Shown piece by piece: positions 1 to 27,486 of a DNA stretch of 36,590 bases. The stretch comes from Caldifarciminota bacterium. Its GTDB lineage: Bacteria > Hydrothermota > UBA3072. A program made the translations under genes and the position numbers. The stretch is taken from positions 1-36,590 of the forward strand of contig JAFGHJ010000009.1 in the NCBI GenBank assembly GCA_016930175.1, in the 5' to 3' direction. Below the pieces are notes generated by a model, which was not told the DNA's origin, made no database searches, and saw nothing but the letters and a program-made list of their open reading frames with translations. Position 1 is the stretch's first letter. Every line of letters starts with the position of its first letter.

Positions 1-3000
1 ATCCTTTAGATGAGGGTTTACCGCATGTTGAGAAAAGAGAATCGCCATATTCATATTTTTTTGATGATTTGAAACTCCTTTTAGATAAATCATTATATTA
101 TCTTGTTATGGATATAGAAGTTAAGCAAGGTATTATATATCTGTCGTCTGGAGCTTGGGTTTATAAATTCAGTTCTACAACAGGTGAGTTTATGGGGTGT
201 ATAAAACCTCCGAATAGAGAATTCCTTCACCTTAGAGGTATCGCAATTAAAGATAACGGCAATATTTTTGCTCTTGAAGCCGGAACCAAAACTTTATGGG
301 AGTTTTCGAATTACGGAGATAGTATTTCTGCGTTGTTTATTCCTATGCTGTATGGTTATGGAGATGTTGAGTATAATGACGGCGTGGTTTATATAGGTAA
401 TGAAAGAAACATTTTGACGATTGAAGGAACATCAATTGACTCTTTCTGTGGAGGCGAAGATTTTACGAAGCACCGTTACTACAAGCGAATTTCTATTTCT
501 GATAATGGGAAAATTGTAGTTGGAGGAGATTACGATGAGGGAGGAAGAGGGCTAAAAGTTTTCTCTTCGACAGGTGATTTTGAAGCGGAAATTTATCCTT
601 ATCCACGTTTTTATGACATGATTTTTTATAACAACGATATAATCCTTTGTGGGGGTTGGGATGCGATGGAGATTAATGTGTATCGAGAATTCGGAAAAGA
701 AAATGGATTGATAAGAGCTGGCCAGTCAGGATTTAAGAACCTGCCGCCGACATTTTTGTTTCAAGGTCATGATAATGTGGATGTCATGAATTCCGGTTCG
801 ATTTCGTATCAAGTTCCAGGTAACTCCTGGGAGGAGTTTATGCCTCTTGAAAGTTTTTACGGAACTGATTACATACCGCCGCCTGTTTATATAAACATGC
901 AGGGAGACTGGCAAGATTCACCTGTGTTTTATGATTGTTTATTTAACCTAAAAGTCTTAAATGTATTCGATTCGTCGATTGTCAAAAATGGATATGACTT
1001 AAATCTCTCACCATTTGATAACGTACCTTTCGCCGATACTATAAAAGATACAATACCGACGGGAGATTATTGTGTATTGGGAAAAGCAAATTCGAGCTAT
1101 CCTCAGAAAATAACTTCCGATTGGAAATTATTCACAGTAATCGGAGATGACCTGACTCTCCTTCTGAAATCAGACAAGGAAGAAGGCTTTGTAGAAGATA
1201 CATTCAGGATAAATCCTATCACAATAAACCCACTTCCTCTGGAAGAAGACAGTTTACACTTACTGATAAAGGGATACTACAACGAAAGTGAAACCACGTA
1301 TGTCGATACATCCTTCGTTTTATTGGCAGAAACTACGGATTCGTTCCCATTCATTATTACGCCCGAGGAGCCTTTGATTATAAAAGCGGAATTAATTGTG
1401 GGTTCTTCCGATACAATAAGAAGAGAATTTGTTCCCATTATAACGAGTAATAGAATGTTGGCATTAGATATATATGCTTCGGATATAGTGGACCTTTTAC
1501 CTTTCAACGTTACTTCTGAAGTTTATAATTATTCCTTCGACAGTCTTTCCGTAGAAGTTAAAAGGATATTCTTATCGGATACATTGAGCGATTCGGTAAA
1601 TCTTGAAATAGAAGGATTTCATACTTTTGTCGATACATTTATAACCGAACAACCGGGAACATTGAAGATTATCGCTTCTACAGGTGGAGTAGTCTTCACG
1701 GAAGAAAAATTCATAGATTTCGGAATGAATGGTGTTGTCCTTCTCGATTCTCTGTATGAAGTCTCTCCGGATTCTATCGAGATGAGCGGTATCGTTAGTA
1801 ATGCCGGACTTTATCCTTTAGAGTGTGATGCTCTTTTCTGTCTGGTGGAGGATGATGGAACAACCCATGAGACAGATGGTAATGATGGAGCAATATCTAT
1901 TCCGGGCGGCAGACAGTTCTCGACGTCAACAAAGCTTACAGCAACACAGCTCTCAGCTGACGGCTCTCGGCTGACAGCTAACTACTCAACTACTCAACAA
2001 CTCAACCACTCAACTGCCGTTTTGTCGGCTCAAAGGATGGCGCTTTCTTCGGTTCATAAGGTCGGCAAAGAAATGACGCTTTCCCAGTTTGTCCGGCAAT
2101 TAACAAGAGCCGGTGTGGACACTTCTTTCTCCGCTATATACCTTTCTCCCGGAAAAACAGATACTATACCCATTATGTTTAACAGGCATGATGTAGGCGA
2201 TTACGATCTCCTGGCATTTCTATTTACCGATTCTCAATCATTTATGTTCGATTCGACATCTTCGGATGTTAACGTCGTAGGCGATAACCAGTTATTTGTC
2301 GATTCTCTTTTTGTTTCGGAAAATTGCGATACAAATGGAGCCGTCCGCTTAACCGCTGTTCTGGATAACCGGTCATTCAGTCCTTTTTCCGGAAATCTGA
2401 CAATAAGTTCGCCTATTTGCTACTTAGATTCGCTCGTTTCTTTACCCTTACACTCAAAAGATACATTGGAGTTTTTACTCGAAGATCCGGTAGCGGAAGG
2501 AACATATACTTTTACATCGATAATCAGTGAAGGAGGAATTCCCGTAAGCCAAAAATCACAGGACATTGAATTCCATCCTATATATAGGTTCGATTCACTG
2601 CCTGCCAATCTCGAAGTATCGACACCGGATTCCGGAATAATAAGATTCCCTGTCAGAAATATCGGAAACGCGAAAGGAGAGAGGAATATAAGAGTTAATT
2701 TAGCGGATGTTATAAGTATAGACGAGTACGCGGTCATAGAACCGGCAGTTTCCGATACGTTTATAAATAACTTTCTCATTCCCGAAGACTTTCCAGGCGG
2801 AGAGTATTTCGCGGATGCTTATATTTTAAAAAACGCTTATCCCGAAATAGATACTTTCTTTAATGTAAAAGTTAACGGTCTTGTTATTAAAGCAGCCGAT
2901 TCTCTGGATAAATTAGTTTATAGTATCGATGATACAGCAGACCTCTCGATATTGATAGAAAATCAGTCGCTCTGGAGCGGCGATTTACTCGCTTCTTTAC

Positions 3001-5945
3001 AGTACGGAGAACTTGAACTGGATACTTCATTCCTCCTCGGAGGTATGGAAAAAGGTGTTTTAAACACAACAACTGATAGGGATACTCTATATCTGGATAC
3101 ATCCGGTGTTTATATGTTCGATCCCATAAACTCCGGGAGTTACGACAGTGTGAGGATAAATTGGAATGCTTCATTGTCCGATTCGCTTATTTTTCAGATG
3201 CGAACGGACTCTTTCATCGGAAGAGGAAACTGGATAACGCTTGAAAGAAATGGTACATATATTCTTGATGACTGGATGCAAATTAATTTTGCCAATAAAT
3301 CACCTGATACCCAGTGGATCGACGCGATTTGTCTTTATTTTAATTCTCTGGGCTGCACAAAATTGGATACTTTCCCACCGCAGAGAGAAATAGTTACCTT
3401 CGAGGTACCGGTCGACTCATCGCAAGAAAAACTCGGATGGGGTATTTACTATCCATCGGGAAGGTCCGTGGTACTGGATGAAAAATATATTTACCTTTCT
3501 GATAGTTTGTTGACTATCTTTACCGATAAAGCGAGATATGAGATTTTCGACACCGTTCACGCGACGCTGTGTAAAAATTTCCCCGACACAAATTACAATT
3601 TTGTGTACAGGGTATACTTCTCACCAACCGAAGAGATATGGGATACTTTTGTTCTTGCCAGAGACACAATGAATTTCTCATTTGTAATTCCCGAATGGAC
3701 GAGGTCGGGAACCTATTCGATAGATTACCGGATTAATGATACAGTGCTCTCGGCTGGCGGCTTACAGCTCTCCGCAACATTTTCCTCACACAAAGCCACA
3801 AAGAACACAGAGGGAAAAGGTGTGCTGTCTCAACAAAATCCCAACCCCCAAATCCTAAATCCTAATTTAACTATCCAACCTTTCAATAATCCAATTGCAA
3901 AACCCGGAGGGGTTGTACCGCTGGCGAAACAATGGGTAATGGGAAAACCCGCTTTAAGCGCGGATGGCGATTCGGCATTTATTTCGGGAGAACATTTATT
4001 CGATGTGGACGGAATAACGGTATACTTCAAAAACGCGAAGATGGACACAAACTTCTATTTTAACGGGGAAAAGGCAAAAATACGAACCGAGATTTTTTCG
4101 GATATAGACATTATGGTGGGTTTGAATATATCATCGACCGGTTCTGCTGTTAAAGACACTAATCTCGATCTTAAAAAAGACATGCCGAATAAATTCGAGT
4201 TTGAGTATCCTGTAGAAAACTGCAGGAGAGGAATGAACGAATTATACCTGCATCTTGCCAAAGACTCGATGAGTCTTGCGGGAATTGTCGTCTATTTCGA
4301 TGTATACGTGTCCGATTCTACCGCGCCTGTTATTTTCGTTCTGGAAAAACCTACCAATACCTACTCGAGTAATAGAGCTTATCAGTTAATGGCAAGAATT
4401 TACGGACCGGATGCGAACGGTACTCCTATCCATGATACACTTTATTATCGAATCGCGTCCGTTGGAGGTTCTTCCTGGCAGGCTCTTTTACCTCATTCGA
4501 TGAGAGGAGATACTCATAAATATTTGATTCCCTCTCATCCGAACGGAACTCATATCGAATATACCTTAATTGCAAGAGATGAATCTGATAATCGCGCCAC
4601 TTACCCCGAAGAAGGAAACGAAGATTTCTGGGTTCTTTCGCCTCTTAAACCTACCTGGAATGATTTAACTTACCTCGCTGACACCAATGCCATTTTAACA
4701 TGGAATCCGCCGGAAGAGATGGTTTACTATCACTGCGGACTCTGTTCGGATACAATCGATATAGAAGAAAATACGATTGCGACCCGGTTTACAACCCAGT
4801 GTCTGCCTGCCGTATTAAAAACGATAGGTCTTGAAATAGTTAAGGAAAACGGGGCTCTTTCCGATACGCTGACGGTTTCGGTATATACGGTCGCGGGTGA
4901 TTCGATACCGGGAACTAAAACAGATTCTTTTGAATTCACGGGAACTTTCGAAGGATACAATGAATTCGACCTCACGGATATTCAAATACCCGAAAACGGA
5001 ATATTCATTGGTGTAAGAGGCTCAAACGGGCTAAACTTACTTCTGGATGGTTTCGGAGAGGGGAGTCATACCGCAATAGACTCAAACGGCACGTGGAATT
5101 TGACGACCTCGGGAGAACTTGTGATAGACGGAATAGTCTCACACCTTCCCACGCCTAAGATAAGGGGCGCTTCAGAAATACTTACTTTTGATGTTTTTAG
5201 ATCTACAGAACAATCCGACTGGACAAAAATAGCTTCAGGTTTAACTTCGAGTACTTATACGGATGAATCTACTCAGGAAAATCAGGAATATTCATATAAA
5301 ATAATGGCTTCTTTCGGTAATCCCGCGGATTCATTTTTGTCTTCCAGCAGGGAGGTATTTATCGATGTTTCTCCTCCGGTAATGGATAGCATAGAGGTAA
5401 ACGATGTAGGTGAAAACGAATTAGTTATATGGGCAGCTCTTACGGATATATCCGGTATAGCATGGGATTCTCTCGGTTATAAAAGCGAAGAGACAATAAA
5501 TATGATTTCCGAGGATAGCTGTAGGAATAACAAATATTTCTTTTCTCTTGTCTTATCCAGAGACACTCTTGAATATTTCCTGAAAACCAAAGACGCGTCT
5601 CTGCTCGGCAATTACGTTCGATACCCGGCAAACGGGTTTTATAAATGGGGTTCGCAGTCCGGAATCCATGAACTGATTCCCGATTCAACATATCTTTTCA
5701 GGATGTCAAACGTTCTGGTGAGCAGTAATATAGAAATAAAATACGCTCTTTCGGAAGAAAGTGATATTCAGATTATGTTCTTCGATATTTTGGGAAGAAA
5801 GGCTAAAACCCTTGTGGATGAGACTAAGAAAGCCGGTTATTACTCGGCTTCGGTAAGATCAACCGAACTGCCTCAGGGGATATATTTCCTCCGAATGAAG
5901 GCGGGAGATTATCGAAAGACTTTAAAACTGGTGAAAGTAAGATAG
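1..5945 (+). CDS. Giant secreted propeller/Ig-like protein with C-terminal sorting domain (5' partial)
   Basis: The frame is open from the first bases with no ATG, ribosome site or signal peptide, so the true start lies upstream; a TTG at 69 is not convincing. About 1,980 residues are visible. Roughly the first 230 resemble NHL/beta-propeller strands (repeated 'dNG.i.v' turns). A very long Thr/Ser/Asp-rich stretch follows, resembling tandem CARDB/Ig-like domains, then an FN3-like segment near 1710-1780. The last ~80 residues form a FlgD-Ig/type-IX-like sorting domain (FFDILGRKAKTL, then LPQGIYFLRM and a basic end). Family knowledge suggests export and surface attachment; the ligand is unknown. 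Two low-complexity stretches, near residues 626-650 and 1226-1277 counted from the TTG at 69, are translated intergenic-type repeats (listed separately). No other gene is co-oriented close downstream. Confidence 0.85.
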   Translation, partial: PLDEGLPHVEKRESPYSYFFDDLKLLLDKSLYYLVMDIEVKQGIIYLSSGAWVYKFSSTTGEFMGCIKPPNREFLHLRGIAIKDNGNIFALEAGTKTLWEFSNYGDSISALFIPMLYGYGDVEYNDGVVYIGNERNILTIEGTSIDSFCGGEDFTKHRYYKRISISDNGKIVVGGDYDEGGRGLKVFSSTGDFEAEIYPYPRFYDMIFYNNDIILCGGWDAMEINVYREFGKENGLIRAGQSGFKNLPPTFLFQGHDNVDVMNSGSISYQVPGNSWEEFMPLESFYGTDYIPPPVYINMQGDWQDSPVFYDCLFNLKVLNVFDSSIVKNGYDLNLSPFDNVPFADTIKDTIPTGDYCVLGKANSSYPQKITSDWKLFTVIGDDLTLLLKSDKEEGFVEDTFRINPITINPLPLEEDSLHLLIKGYYNESETTYVDTSFVLLAETTDSFPFIITPEEPLIIKAELIVGSSDTIRREFVPIITSNRMLALDIYASDIVDLLPFNVTSEVYNYSFDSLSVEVKRIFLSDTLSDSVNLEIEGFHTFVDTFITEQPGTLKIIASTGGVVFTEEKFIDFGMNGVVLLDSLYEVSPDSIEMSGIVSNAGLYPLECDALFCLVEDDGTTHETDGNDGAISIPGGRQFSTSTKLTATQLSADGSRLTANYSTTQQLNHSTAVLSAQRMALSSVHKVGKEMTLSQFVRQLTRAGVDTSFSAIYLSPGKTDTIPIMFNRHDVGDYDLLAFLFTDSQSFMFDSTSSDVNVVGDNQLFVDSLFVSENCDTNGAVRLTAVLDNRSFSPFSGNLTISSPICYLDSLVSLPLHSKDTLEFLLEDPVAEGTYTFTSIISEGGIPVSQKSQDIEFHPIYRFDSLPANLEVSTPDSGIIRFPVRNIGNAKGERNIRVNLADVISIDEYAVIEPAVSDTFINNFLIPEDFPGGEYFADAYILKNAYPEIDTFFNVKVNGLVIKAADSLDKLVYSIDDTADLSILIENQSLWSGDLLASLQYGELELDTSFLLGGMEKGVLNTTTDRDTLYLDTSGVYMFDPINSGSYDSVRINWNASLSDSLIFQMRTDSFIGRGNWITLERNGTYILDDWMQINFANKSPDTQWIDAICLYFNSLGCTKLDTFPPQREIVTFEVPVDSSQEKLGWGIYYPSGRSVVLDEKYIYLSDSLLTIFTDKARYEIFDTVHATLCKNFPDTNYNFVYRVYFSPTEEIWDTFVLARDTMNFSFVIPEWTRSGTYSIDYRINDTVLSAGGLQLSATFSSHKATKNTEGKGVLSQQNPNPQILNPNLTIQPFNNPIAKPGGVVPLAKQWVMGKPALSADGDSAFISGEHLFDVDGITVYFKNAKMDTNFYFNGEKAKIRTEIFSDIDIMVGLNISSTGSAVKDTNLDLKKDMPNKFEFEYPVENCRRGMNELYLHLAKDSMSLAGIVVYFDVYVSDSTAPVIFVLEKPTNTYSSNRAYQLMARIYGPDANGTPIHDTLYYRIASVGGSSWQALLPHSMRGDTHKYLIPSHPNGTHIEYTLIARDESDNRATYPEEGNEDFWVLSPLKPTWNDLTYLADTNAILTWNPPEEMVYYHCGLCSDTIDIEENTIATRFTTQCLPAVLKTIGLEIVKENGALSDTLTVSVYTVAGDSIPGTKTDSFEFTGTFEGYNEFDLTDIQIPENGIFIGVRGSNGLNLLLDGFGEGSHTAIDSNGTWNLTTSGELVIDGIVSHLPTPKIRGASEILTFDVFRSTEQSDWTKIASGLTSSTYTDESTQENQEYSYKIMASFGNPADSFLSSSREVFIDVSPPVMDSIEVNDVGENELVIWAALTDISGIAWDSLGYKSEETINMISEDSCRNNKYFFSLVLSRDTLEYFLKTKDASLLGNYVRYPANGFYKWGSQSGIHELIPDSTYLFRMSNVLVSSNIEIKYALSEESDIQIMFFDILGRKAKTLVDETKKAGYYSASVRSTELPQGIYFLRMKAGDYRKTLKLVKVR
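1947..2015 (+). repeat. In-frame heptamer + octamer array inside the giant gene
   Basis: Five 7-nt units (CAGCTCT, CAGCTGA, CGGCTCT...) run from 1947 to 1981. They merge into an 8-nt-period array (CAACTACT type) from 1979 to 2015. The block is 69 nt, a multiple of three, and is read through as a Thr/Ser/Gln/Asn-rich stretch unlike the flanking Ig-like sequence. The same two word types recur, inverted, just after this gene's stop codon. Confidence 0.75.
3744..3896 (+). repeat. In-frame composite of repeat phrases inside the giant gene
   Basis: Three phrases follow one another: heptamers at 3744-3771 (CGGCTGG, CGGCTTA, CAGCTCT), octamers at 3788-3811 (ACACAAAG, CCACAAAG), and CCTAAAT-type heptamers around 3847-3867. 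They are translated as a Gln/Asn/Pro-rich stretch of about 50 residues without a stop. The same words occur in intergenic DNA elsewhere in the window. Confidence 0.65.
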
Positions 5946-6120
5946 ATACGGATACTCCGTATCAGTTGAATCGTTGAATAGATAAATAGTTAAATAGTGA
6001 AAACAGAACTCCAATTTTTACATGGGAGAAGAATAGCCGACAACTGAGAGCTGAAAGCTGAAAATAGAGGTATAATGTTTAAAAAAATAATAATTTCTCT
6101 TTTTGGGTCAATCTTTAGGA
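5945..6120. repeat. Hairpin and repeat phrases after the giant gene, with a possible gene-start remnant
   Basis: A perfect 8-bp hairpin with a 3-nt loop (GATACGGA/TCCGTATC) occupies 5945-5963; no T-run follows, so it is not a classical terminator. Octamers (GTTGAATC type) fill 5965-5999 and heptamers (GAGCTGA type) fill 6041-6061. At 6066-6076 a GAGG ribosome site precedes an ATG (6074) opening a signal-peptide-like MFKKIIISLFGSIF. This then runs into the 3' end of the oppositely oriented gene, so it may be a truncated gene remnant. Confidence 0.5.
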
Positions 6121-7208: not shown

Positions 7209-7228
7209 ATAACAAAGTACTTTGTTAT
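7209..7228. promoter_or_regulatory. Perfect 20-bp palindrome (operator or 5'-UTR hairpin)
   Basis: ATAACAAAGTACTTTGTTAT equals its own reverse complement. It begins where transcription should start and ends next to the ribosome site. It could therefore be a repressor operator or, as RNA, a hairpin at the very 5' end of the message. Confidence 0.6.
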
Positions 7229-7235
7229 ATAAAGT

Positions 7236-7263
7236 ATTATAATAATTTTTTTAAATTTGTCAA
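7236..7263 (-). promoter_or_regulatory. Promoter of the 6634-7194 gene
   Basis: TTGACA at 7263-7258, 16-bp spacer, TATAAT at 7241-7236, all on the minus strand. A CCCCC tract lies just upstream, a context seen at several promoters in this window. Confidence 0.75.
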
Positions 7264-7276
7264 GGGGGTGGTATAC

Positions 7277-8790: not shown

Positions 8791-8988
8791 CCACGGATAA
8801 ACACGGAGACACAGAGGACACAAAGTTTTTAAAAGGTTGGTCTGTTGGTCAGTTAGTCCGTTGGTCTGTTTTTTTACACACCAACGCACCCACGAACTAA
8901 CGCACTACTTTGATTGTTTTTTTGACCAGTGACTGGTGACTGATGACTCGGTGCTCCGCACCGTACCCCTTGACTTATGAGAATAATT
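8791..8988 (+). repeat. Composite repeat element A ending in hairpin and promoter remnant
   Basis: Ordered phrases: octamers ACACGGAG/ACACAGAG (8801-8825), octamers GGTCTGTT (8839-8870, four exact-length units), octamers TAACGCAC (8882-8905), heptamers TGACTGG (8923-8950, four units). A CGGTGC-TCC-GCACCG hairpin (8949-8963) follows, then CCCCTTGACTTATGAG. The promoter half stops at about 8991, where the stop codon of the convergent AbiEi gene begins, and the -10 box is absent. The same phrase order appears inverted at 17489-17620. Confidence 0.7.
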
Positions 8989-11708: not shown

Positions 11709-11920
11709 TAAAGATCAAACAGGATTGATATTTTGAAATTTTTTTTGCCGTCAGCCGTAGGCGGTATACGGATAGCCATTTCTGACTAATGACTCGCAAT
11801 GCGACGCATTGCGCCCTTGAATTCTTTGAGTTTTTTTTACAAACCAACTATCCCACGAACCAACTTACCAACTTGTACGTACGCAAACCTCTTGACATCT
11901 CAGGTACGTACACTAAATTT
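11709..11920 (+). repeat. Repeat-filled gap with hairpin element D
   Basis: Two TGACTAA/TGACTCG heptamers (11783-11796) run into a GCAATGC-GAC-GCATTGC hairpin (11796-11813), followed by GCCCTTGAATTC. This is the heptamer-hairpin-promoter layout of elements A, B and C with a different stem sequence. Octamers of ACCAACTT type fill 11843-11874. Two GTACGTAC palindromes at 11875-11882 and 11904-11911 flank a TTGACA. No gene was seen. Confidence 0.6.
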
Positions 11921-14120: not shown

Positions 14121-14202
14121 TGACCAGTGACTGGCGACTAGTGACTGATGACTCGGTGCTCCGCACCGCACCCCTTGACTTTTTCAAATATTTATATATT
14201 TT
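14121..14202 (+). promoter_or_regulatory. Element B: heptamer array, hairpin and promoter of abiE module 3
   Basis: Five heptamers (TGACCAG, TGACTGG, CGACTAG...) at 14121-14155 lead into the CGGTGC-TCC-GCACCG hairpin and CCCCTTGACT. TTGACT lies at 14175-14180 and TATTTT at 14197-14202 (16-bp spacing). The leader to the ATG at 14244 is about 35 nt without a strong ribosome site. Confidence 0.6.
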
Positions 14203-15658: not shown

Positions 15659-15661
15659 TTT

Positions 15662-15745
15662 TGACCAATGACTCGTGACTGATGACTCGGTGCTCCGCAC
15701 CGTACCCCTTGACTTATGAGAATGATTTTTTATACTATGAGTATA
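15662..15745 (+). promoter_or_regulatory. Element C: heptamer array, hairpin and promoter with inverted repeat
   Basis: Four TGACTCG-type heptamers (15662-15689), the CGGTGC-TCC-GCACCG hairpin, CCCCTTGACT (TTGACT 15709-15714), a 16-bp spacer and TATACT (15731-15736). The -10 is also the left arm of TATACT-ATG-AGTATA (15731-15745). It probably drives the HEPN-like gene at 15834. Confidence 0.65.
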
Positions 15746-27049: not shown

Positions 27050-27109
27050 CTAGTCGGATTAGTGGAATTTTAATGTAAAAGGCAACGAGGTTAATTTCTT
27101 CGACAGTTT

Positions 27110-27486
27110 GATTCGCAAGGAGTGCTGTCCGAGAAAGACGTGGTCAATTTCCCCGGCGGTTGTCGTTCGGGTATACCTTTCTAAAAAACCGCAGTCAGTT
27201 TTCCCTGCGGGTTGATTCGTAAGGAGTACTATTCGAGAAAGACGTGGTCAGTTTCCCCCAACGTGGAAATTGCCACTCGGCTCTCGGGTTCGCTCCTTTT
27301 GAAATGGCTACATTTCAAAAGACCATGCTCGCTCACCCTGCGAGACGCTTTCTTGGACAGTACCCCTTGCTCATTTTATCAATAAAAGACCGTGCCCGCT
27401 CGGTCTCCTCGCCCGGTGGAATAGCTGCTCAATACAGGGCAACTACTATTCCACCAGGCGAGACATTTTCTTGAATAAGTATCTCT
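27110..27486. repeat. Hairpin-rich repeat cluster G
   Basis: Two 45-bp direct copies at 27110-27154 and 27214-27258 differ at about five positions and start 104 bp apart. Two partial inverted copies lie near 27344-27370 and 27459-27485. Hairpins include a perfect 11-bp stem with 4-nt loop at 27296-27321 (CTTTTGAAATG/CATTTCAAAAG), CCGCAG/CTGCGG at 27189-27210, and a GGTGGAATAG/CTATTCCACC pair at about 27414-27455. No ORF of note and no T-runs were seen. GC content is visibly higher than in the flanks. Confidence 0.6.

Follow-up and report, generated by a model that had tools for sequence, protein, structure and literature searches.

In-frame repeat blocks in a giant Ig-like protein of a WOR-3 bacterium as probable copies of short dispersed repeat modules

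Introduction

Reports of small repeats inserted in frame at an unusually high level come chiefly from Rickettsia. The Rickettsia palindromic elements (RPEs) are dispersed repeats that lie between genes and also, in frame, within unrelated protein-coding genes, to which they add peptide segments (PMC10969869). Heptamers of the TAACTGA type form short arrays in Beggiatoaceae, Cyanobacteria and Bacteroidetes; the arrays are patchily distributed and mostly intergenic, and some lie in ORFs, including MurG, in the stop-free orientation (PMC4679880). The GGGNATC heptamers of Xanthomonas and Nostoc, and likewise the cyanobacterial STRR, are intergenic arrays that tend to have about four units, a tendency for which G-quadruplexes have been invoked (PMC4692102). 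REP/GTAG palindromes with their RAYT transposases are small dispersed hairpin elements that are occasionally intragenic (PMC3733652), and the amino-acid tandem repeats of Borgs, whose units are divisible by three and virtually unique to one place, give disordered protein segments that are often extracellular (PMC9879509). RPEs are the closest functional parallel of the locus described here and TAACTGA repeats are the closest in form.

Results

Composite repeats lie in frame in a giant secreted protein

The window, the whole stretch of 36,590 nt that was analyzed, is contig C13 of G000, the 2.34-Mb draft genome of an uncultured WOR-3 bacterium. The 5′ part of the carrier gene was located at one end of C8, a contig that overlaps the beginning of the window, and joining C8 and the window gave the full gene. 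The features of the gene and of the region beyond its stop codon are as follows.

3–5945, + strand: carrier gene; the open frame encodes 1,980 residues at the C-terminus of an Ig-like secreted protein of ~3,526 residues.
1933–1979, + strand: site 1, probably older half; CRGCTNN heptamers, imperfect from ~1933 and clear from 1947, with a related form in the G001 ortholog.
1980–2015, + strand: site 1, putatively younger half; octamer array CTACTCAA-CTACTCAA-CAACTCAA-CCACTCAA-CT, with a 34-nt core at 1982–2015.
3745–3775, + strand: site 2, module 1; CRGCTNN heptamers, like the heptamers at the same position in G001.
3786–3820, + strand: site 2, module 2; nonamer array TCACACAAAGCCACAAAGAACACAGAGGG (CACAAAG type), as in intergenic TCTCACACAAAGACACAAAG modules, not in G001.
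3834–3866, + strand: site 2, module 3; heptamer array AAATCCC/AAATCCT, not in G001.
3866–3897, + strand: site 2, module 4; octamer-like AACTATCC AACCTTTC AATAATCC AAT, not in G001.
5945–5963, + strand: hairpin GATACGGATACTCCGTATC at the carrier gene end, adjoining the inverted octamer array (array plus hairpin architecture).
5965–6002, − strand: intergenic octamer array of the CNAYTYAA family, past the carrier stop codon.
6039–6059, − strand: intergenic CRGCTNN heptamer array, past the carrier stop codon.

A Por_Secre_tail match was detected at residues 1907–1976 of the carrier protein (E = 2.7e-5, under the Pfam cut-off). As an earlier sequence-only reading had described, positions 1947–2015 form a 69-nt block in frame 0 of 3–5945 without a stop codon, which is translated to QLSADGSRLTANYSTTQQLNHST and is composed of five CRGCTNN heptamers and the 34-nt CNAYTYAA octamer array, the core of which reads CTACTCAACTACTCAACAACTCAACCACTCAACT. 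The Thr/Ser/Gln-rich character that set the stretch apart from its flanks was borne out, with T/S/Q/N making up 57% of the block peptide versus 24% of the whole carrier protein, and so was the inverted recurrence of the same two word types just past the stop codon (5965–6002 and 6039–6059). TRF called arrays at 1946–1979 with period 14 (two heptamers) and at 1980–2015 with period 8, and the octamer part scored 22 at lag 8, against a maximum of 12 over 300 dinucleotide shuffles of the gene. The extent given earlier was correct as to the presence of the composite at 1947–2015, but the heptamers begin in imperfect form at ~1933, and a second in-frame composite at ~3745–3897, longer than site 1 and made of four repeat modules, had been overlooked.

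With a length of exactly 34 nt, the octamer core by itself is not divisible by three. The octamer array is stop-free in 3/3 frames in the coding orientation and in 0/3 frames in reverse; its orientation fits selection against stop codons. Folding of the block showed pairing in the heptamer part and none in the octamer part, and no known RNA was matched in an Rfam search of the window. An AlphaFold2 model built from four sequences is of low confidence overall, with a mean pLDDT of 56; values in the inserted loop are 21–28, secondary structure is mostly lacking there, and the loop is predicted to be disordered.

The same kinds of words fill much of the intergenic space

Intergenic arrays in a 760-kb sample numbered 30 for period 7, 33 for period 8 and 21 for period 9, against one or two in shuffles. 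The lengths were tight, with medians per array (1.07 Mb) of ~4.6 units of 7 nt, ~4.4 units of 8 nt and ~2.9 units of 9 nt. The word families include CRGCTNN, AAATCCN, AGTCAYN, CNAYTYAA, AACNGACY, AACNCACY and CACAAAGNN. Dispersed repeats accounted for 32% of the sampled intergenic DNA in G000 (29% in a size-matched subsample) versus 7% in G001, and the array density per kb was 1.48 between convergent, 0.74 between divergent and 0.57 between codirectional genes. A rule of exactly one free base per unit was tried and rejected statistically, transversions being only mildly phase-concentrated (136 vs 122 expected), and it is kept here as an impression.

The octamer half of the site 1 block has copies at other G000 sites that cover the same 34 nt with up to 94% identity and E values down to 1.8e-8. 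The copies that were checked are intergenic, share internal variants and are often flanked by a T-rich stretch and nonamers before and a small hairpin after. Because these in-register 34-nt copies sit at other, intergenic sites, the octamer array appears to be a dispersed element rather than a product of local synthesis. When unit order was shuffled, the observed register matching exceeded the shuffled one in three octamer families (z = 7.8, 6.0 and 3.3) and in a fourth, small one (z = 3.2), and a fifth showed no effect; alignment at the left edge could favor fixed ends without descent in this test. By eye, no terminal inverted repeats were seen in the 34-nt octamer copies, as would be looked for in MITEs.

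Of 25 octamer arrays, more than half had a stem of at least 5 pairs with a 3-nt loop near the array end, compared with 1.3% of random intergenic positions. The stem sequences differ, including GATTC/GAATC, GATCC/GGATC, CGCCT/AGGCG, AAAAC/GTTTT and CTCGA/TCGAG in the ungapped hairpins from which the variation was taken. Two further structured arrays of the window are a paired, inverted one and one followed by a hairpin.

8836–8915, + strand: paired octamer arrays (GTTRGTCN)4 - T7 - (AACNCACY)n, with an imperfect hairpin fold (z = −3.6).
8921–8972, + strand: heptamer array TGACCAGTGACTGGTGACTGATGACT, then hairpin CGGTGC-TCC-GCACCG; near-identical copies at ~14124–14175 and ~15661–15712.

A fourth copy of the heptamer array plus hairpin at ~11785–11820 has another stem, CGCAATGCG-A-CGCATTGCG, in which pairing is retained. 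Two further stretches of the window were recorded separately. Positions 27103–27406 belong to a larger dispersed repeat family of at least six segments with periodic AGAAAGACGTGGTCAATTTCC units, outside the 7–9-nt system. Positions 7211–7267 form a promoter-like stretch with the palindrome AACAAAGTACTTTGTT and four similar copies in the sampled genome, and the candidate two-gene cassette downstream looks like a toxin–antitoxin or nucleotidyltransferase pair.

Distribution among genomes and the question of slippage

The relatives compared were candidate division WOR-3 genomes. Among 390 genomes searched, AACNGACY octamers were matched in G000 (31), G004 (11), G005 (2) and G002 (1), all from the same family as the window, and the 386 others had no match; the idea that the words are universally shared was rejected on this confinement to four genomes of one family. 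CRGCTNN arrays were found in 37 of the 390 genomes, other phyla included, with the reversed control pattern also matching in some, which calls for caution. G001 has a small number of these arrays, a sizeable share of them inside the carrier gene. In distant genomes (L126, L129, L130, L138 and L140) the arrays frequently run to far more units than the ~4 of G000, which suggests classic slippage behind these many-unit arrays. A search of plasmids with a 201-nt repeat-rich stretch gave no match, and no exact octamer pattern was found in viral contigs.

Replication slippage might likewise have enlarged the words of the block on the spot, with nothing copied from elsewhere. The tandem structure and the many-unit CRGCTNN arrays in unrelated phyla are what this would produce, and heptamer bias has been tied to polymerase slippage in published proposals (Mrazek 2007, as cited in PMC4679880). 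We consider such an origin very unlikely for this block, since the 34-nt matches elsewhere share internal variants, the register tests reject a free order of units in three families, and four unrelated types of module, each also found intergenically, are stacked at site 2. Of the earlier wording "mobile or locally synthesised", the second half is disfavored by the in-register 34-nt copies.

The DNA-level matches also bear on whether the block is low-complexity coding sequence that arose by chance in a variable loop and just looks like intergenic words. The loop is indeed variable in every ortholog, but the 34-nt matches with E down to 1.8e-8, the 43 repeat matches in the carrier gene described below and the excess of the lag-8 score over all shuffles refute this idea, which we find scarcely credible.

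Orthologs differ at the two loops

The ortholog in G001, of the same genus, is ~52% identical across 3,390 aligned residues. In the whole-gene alignment, five insertions of at least 6 residues were found in the window part of G000 relative to G001, and all were within the two loops. Repeat modules make up three of these five; the other two, both at site 1 (~1851–1868 and 1881–1913), are not recognizable as repeats, so the site 1 loop seems to vary by other routes too.

CRGCT heptamers are present in the G001 ortholog at both loops, and the octamer, nonamer and AAATCC modules are absent there. At the peptide level, LQLSAT..SA stands against KLTATQLSA and LTATQLSA against LSATGFSA at site 1. The sequence-only reading had looked for a clean 23-residue gap in orthologs, which is not what was found, since G001 already has CRGCT heptamers at site 1; at the same time, the orthologs carry no conserved non-repeat sequence of equal length at the site. 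Given the heptamers in G001, the heptamer half of site 1 probably predates the split of the G000 and G001 species, and the octamer half is an addition in the window's lineage.

Among other orthologs, G004 C150 is without heptamers or other modules at loops 1 and 2, and G006 is without modules at loop 1. A paralog, G004 C497 (L005), has a ~60-residue insert of GTAGGGGC/GGGTTTGATTCATCAAACCC-type palindromic repeats in the loop matching window 1860–2030. GTAGGGG-like repeats were also noted at the same loop 1 in this paralog. The proposal that words found between genes are tolerated as protein agrees with their being carried in frame in a variable loop.

Internal carriage is rare among sampled genes of the window's genome

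All dispersed repeat segments were compared with 761 sampled CDS, covering about half of the genome and defined by a simple ORF caller instead of annotated genes. The carrier gene had 43 repeat matches at internal positions and was the sole gene clearly matched internally among the 761. In the remaining strongly matched ORFs, the matches lay near the ends, where the ORF caller may have over-extended starts, and single weak matches in CDS were equally frequent with the reversed control.

Independent in-frame inserts in core enzymes of a relative

G023, a genome of another WOR-3 family, encodes an intact MurG (L137, 262–1479, minus strand) with three internal in-frame repeat inserts. The first, SEDWKIGRAM, is an octamer array (GAAGATTG ×3–4) and corresponds to a clean 10-residue gap in six orthologs. 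The other two, of ~18 and ~15 residues (NREMDIRSSEINISRSAF and QDSDLQSSIFKYSN), are opposite gaps too, and gaps were also seen at the inserts in solved MurG structures. The C-terminus of the same protein is made of an octamer array. The FtsW-like ORF beside this murG gene terminates in a CRGCT array.

Copies related to MurG insert 3 were found at other G023 sites, two of them in the core genes for FabD and NadB. In FabD (L162, 945–1988), an insert of 37 residues separates two positions that are adjacent in PDB 3ezo, and NadB (L160, 1178–2848) has a smaller insert relative to 1chu; both inserts hold ATCTTCAA-type words, and that of FabD has only a 17-nt stretch in common with another repeat copy and is for the most part unassigned. 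The two cases resemble that of MurG but appear weaker, because just short repeat matches were found for them.

These enzymes bear on whether the inserts are selected functional linkers, that is, whether segments rich in T/S/Q/N are favored because they make a surface-protein loop longer or add glycosylation to it, the repeats being adaptive raw material. The gathering of modules in two loops of one secreted protein, with the other sampled genes spared, and the recognizable retention of heptamer-derived peptide in two species speak for selection, which has also been argued for the Borg tandem repeats of extracellular proteins (PMC9879509). We nonetheless hold it unlikely, as the same kind of insert in MurG, an enzyme of the cytoplasmic face, fits tolerance better, and the orthologs of the carrier are few and diverged.

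Candidate copying enzymes

No RVT_1 reverse transcriptase was matched in the incomplete drafts G000–G005, where control genomes did match, and telomerase-like synthesis by a reverse transcriptase was rejected on its absence from these six genomes. Y1_Tnp genes occur in each of the six. The sole one of G000 (L125, C29, 1051–1908) is flanked by AATTACACA..GGTCGCGGAAGA repeats and AATTACACATTCTGGTCGCGGAAGAAGGTGTGTAGTTTGG, not by array modules, and mobilization of the RAYT/REP kind was rejected since this single gene is flanked by other repeats.

Discussion

The block at 1947–2015 consists, with a probability of roughly 0.82, of copies of short dispersed repeat modules that occasionally land in coding sequence and are kept as protein. 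The modules would be arrays of 3–5 degenerate units of 7, 8 or 9 nt each, ~26–36 nt in all, that fill much of the intergenic space. Landings in coding sequence would mostly be purged by selection; a copy that preserves the reading frame, is oriented so that no stop codon is read and sits in a flexible loop would survive and be translated as part of the protein. At site 1, a module of CRGCT heptamers may have arrived before the split of the window's and the sister species and been kept as peptide, with the octamer landing alongside later. At site 2, an older CRGCT module may have had three others stacked onto it, namely the nonamer array, heptamers of a second type and the octamer-like array. 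We infer this order of events and a neutral or near-neutral tolerance, and also that the modules spread by a copying process, the remaining ones sitting in disordered loops after purging.

The likeness to RPEs suggested by the sequence-only reading holds for in-frame insertion of dispersed repeats, which is seen in G023 MurG as well, but no long conserved palindrome is present. Insertion at gap positions is clear for G023 MurG, and the heptamer half in the window gene is common to G001. RPEs are palindromes of ~150 bp (100–150 bp) with a conserved encoded peptide, whereas the tandem arrays here, of ~26–36 nt, belong to many unrelated families with differing frames and peptides. The TAACTGA system has a single word, inserted mostly at the ends of proteins; the repeats described here comprise many words with periods of 7, 8 and 9 nt and form composites, and their insertions are internal relative to orthologs. 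Several degenerate 7-nt units in mainly intergenic positions, by which heptamer/STRR-type repeats are defined, are found here too, and the 8- and 9-nt families go beyond that definition. In contrast to REP elements, the octamer modules of the window are tandem arrays with no consistent GTAG end, and the repeats beside the Y1 gene of G000 are different ones from the array modules; the definition of REP elements asks for a GTAG- or CGTC-tagged stem-loop at a Y1 transposase gene. The Borg repeats are alike in that tandem DNA repeats yield disordered protein segments, but the units here are of 7, 8 and 9 nt and their families are dispersed over the genome.

Unlike GGGNATC, the WOR-3 words are not G-rich, yet their arrays have ~4 units too. 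This argues against G-quadruplexes as the general cause of four-unit heptamer arrays, and another cause is needed for the unit preference here because words without G-runs show it. Our best guess is that words are born by short slippage and would then spread by template switching from array to array or by a hairpin-dependent process; copying that depends on length and periodicity is preferred because many unrelated words have one common build. It is conceivable, though we put it forward only tentatively, that parts of the WOR-3 phylum have an open-ended system that makes and spreads sequence-unrelated modules with one build (a 7–9-nt period, ~3–5 units and 26–36 nt, often with one free base per unit, some with a covarying hairpin stem) and keeps adding new peptide loops to proteins, both conserved enzymes and those of the surface. 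If so, one copying process would recognize length and periodicity, not sequence.

The same phenomenon as in Rickettsia is now seen in an unrelated candidate phylum, with elements that are much shorter and far more varied, and with the essential enzyme MurG included. With modules in loops of this giant surface protein, and also within an enzyme that is essential in a relative, it appears that non-coding repeat DNA can turn into new protein segments. The route from non-coding repeat DNA to bacterial protein loops, and what copies the widespread 7–9-nt arrays, thereby become testable questions.
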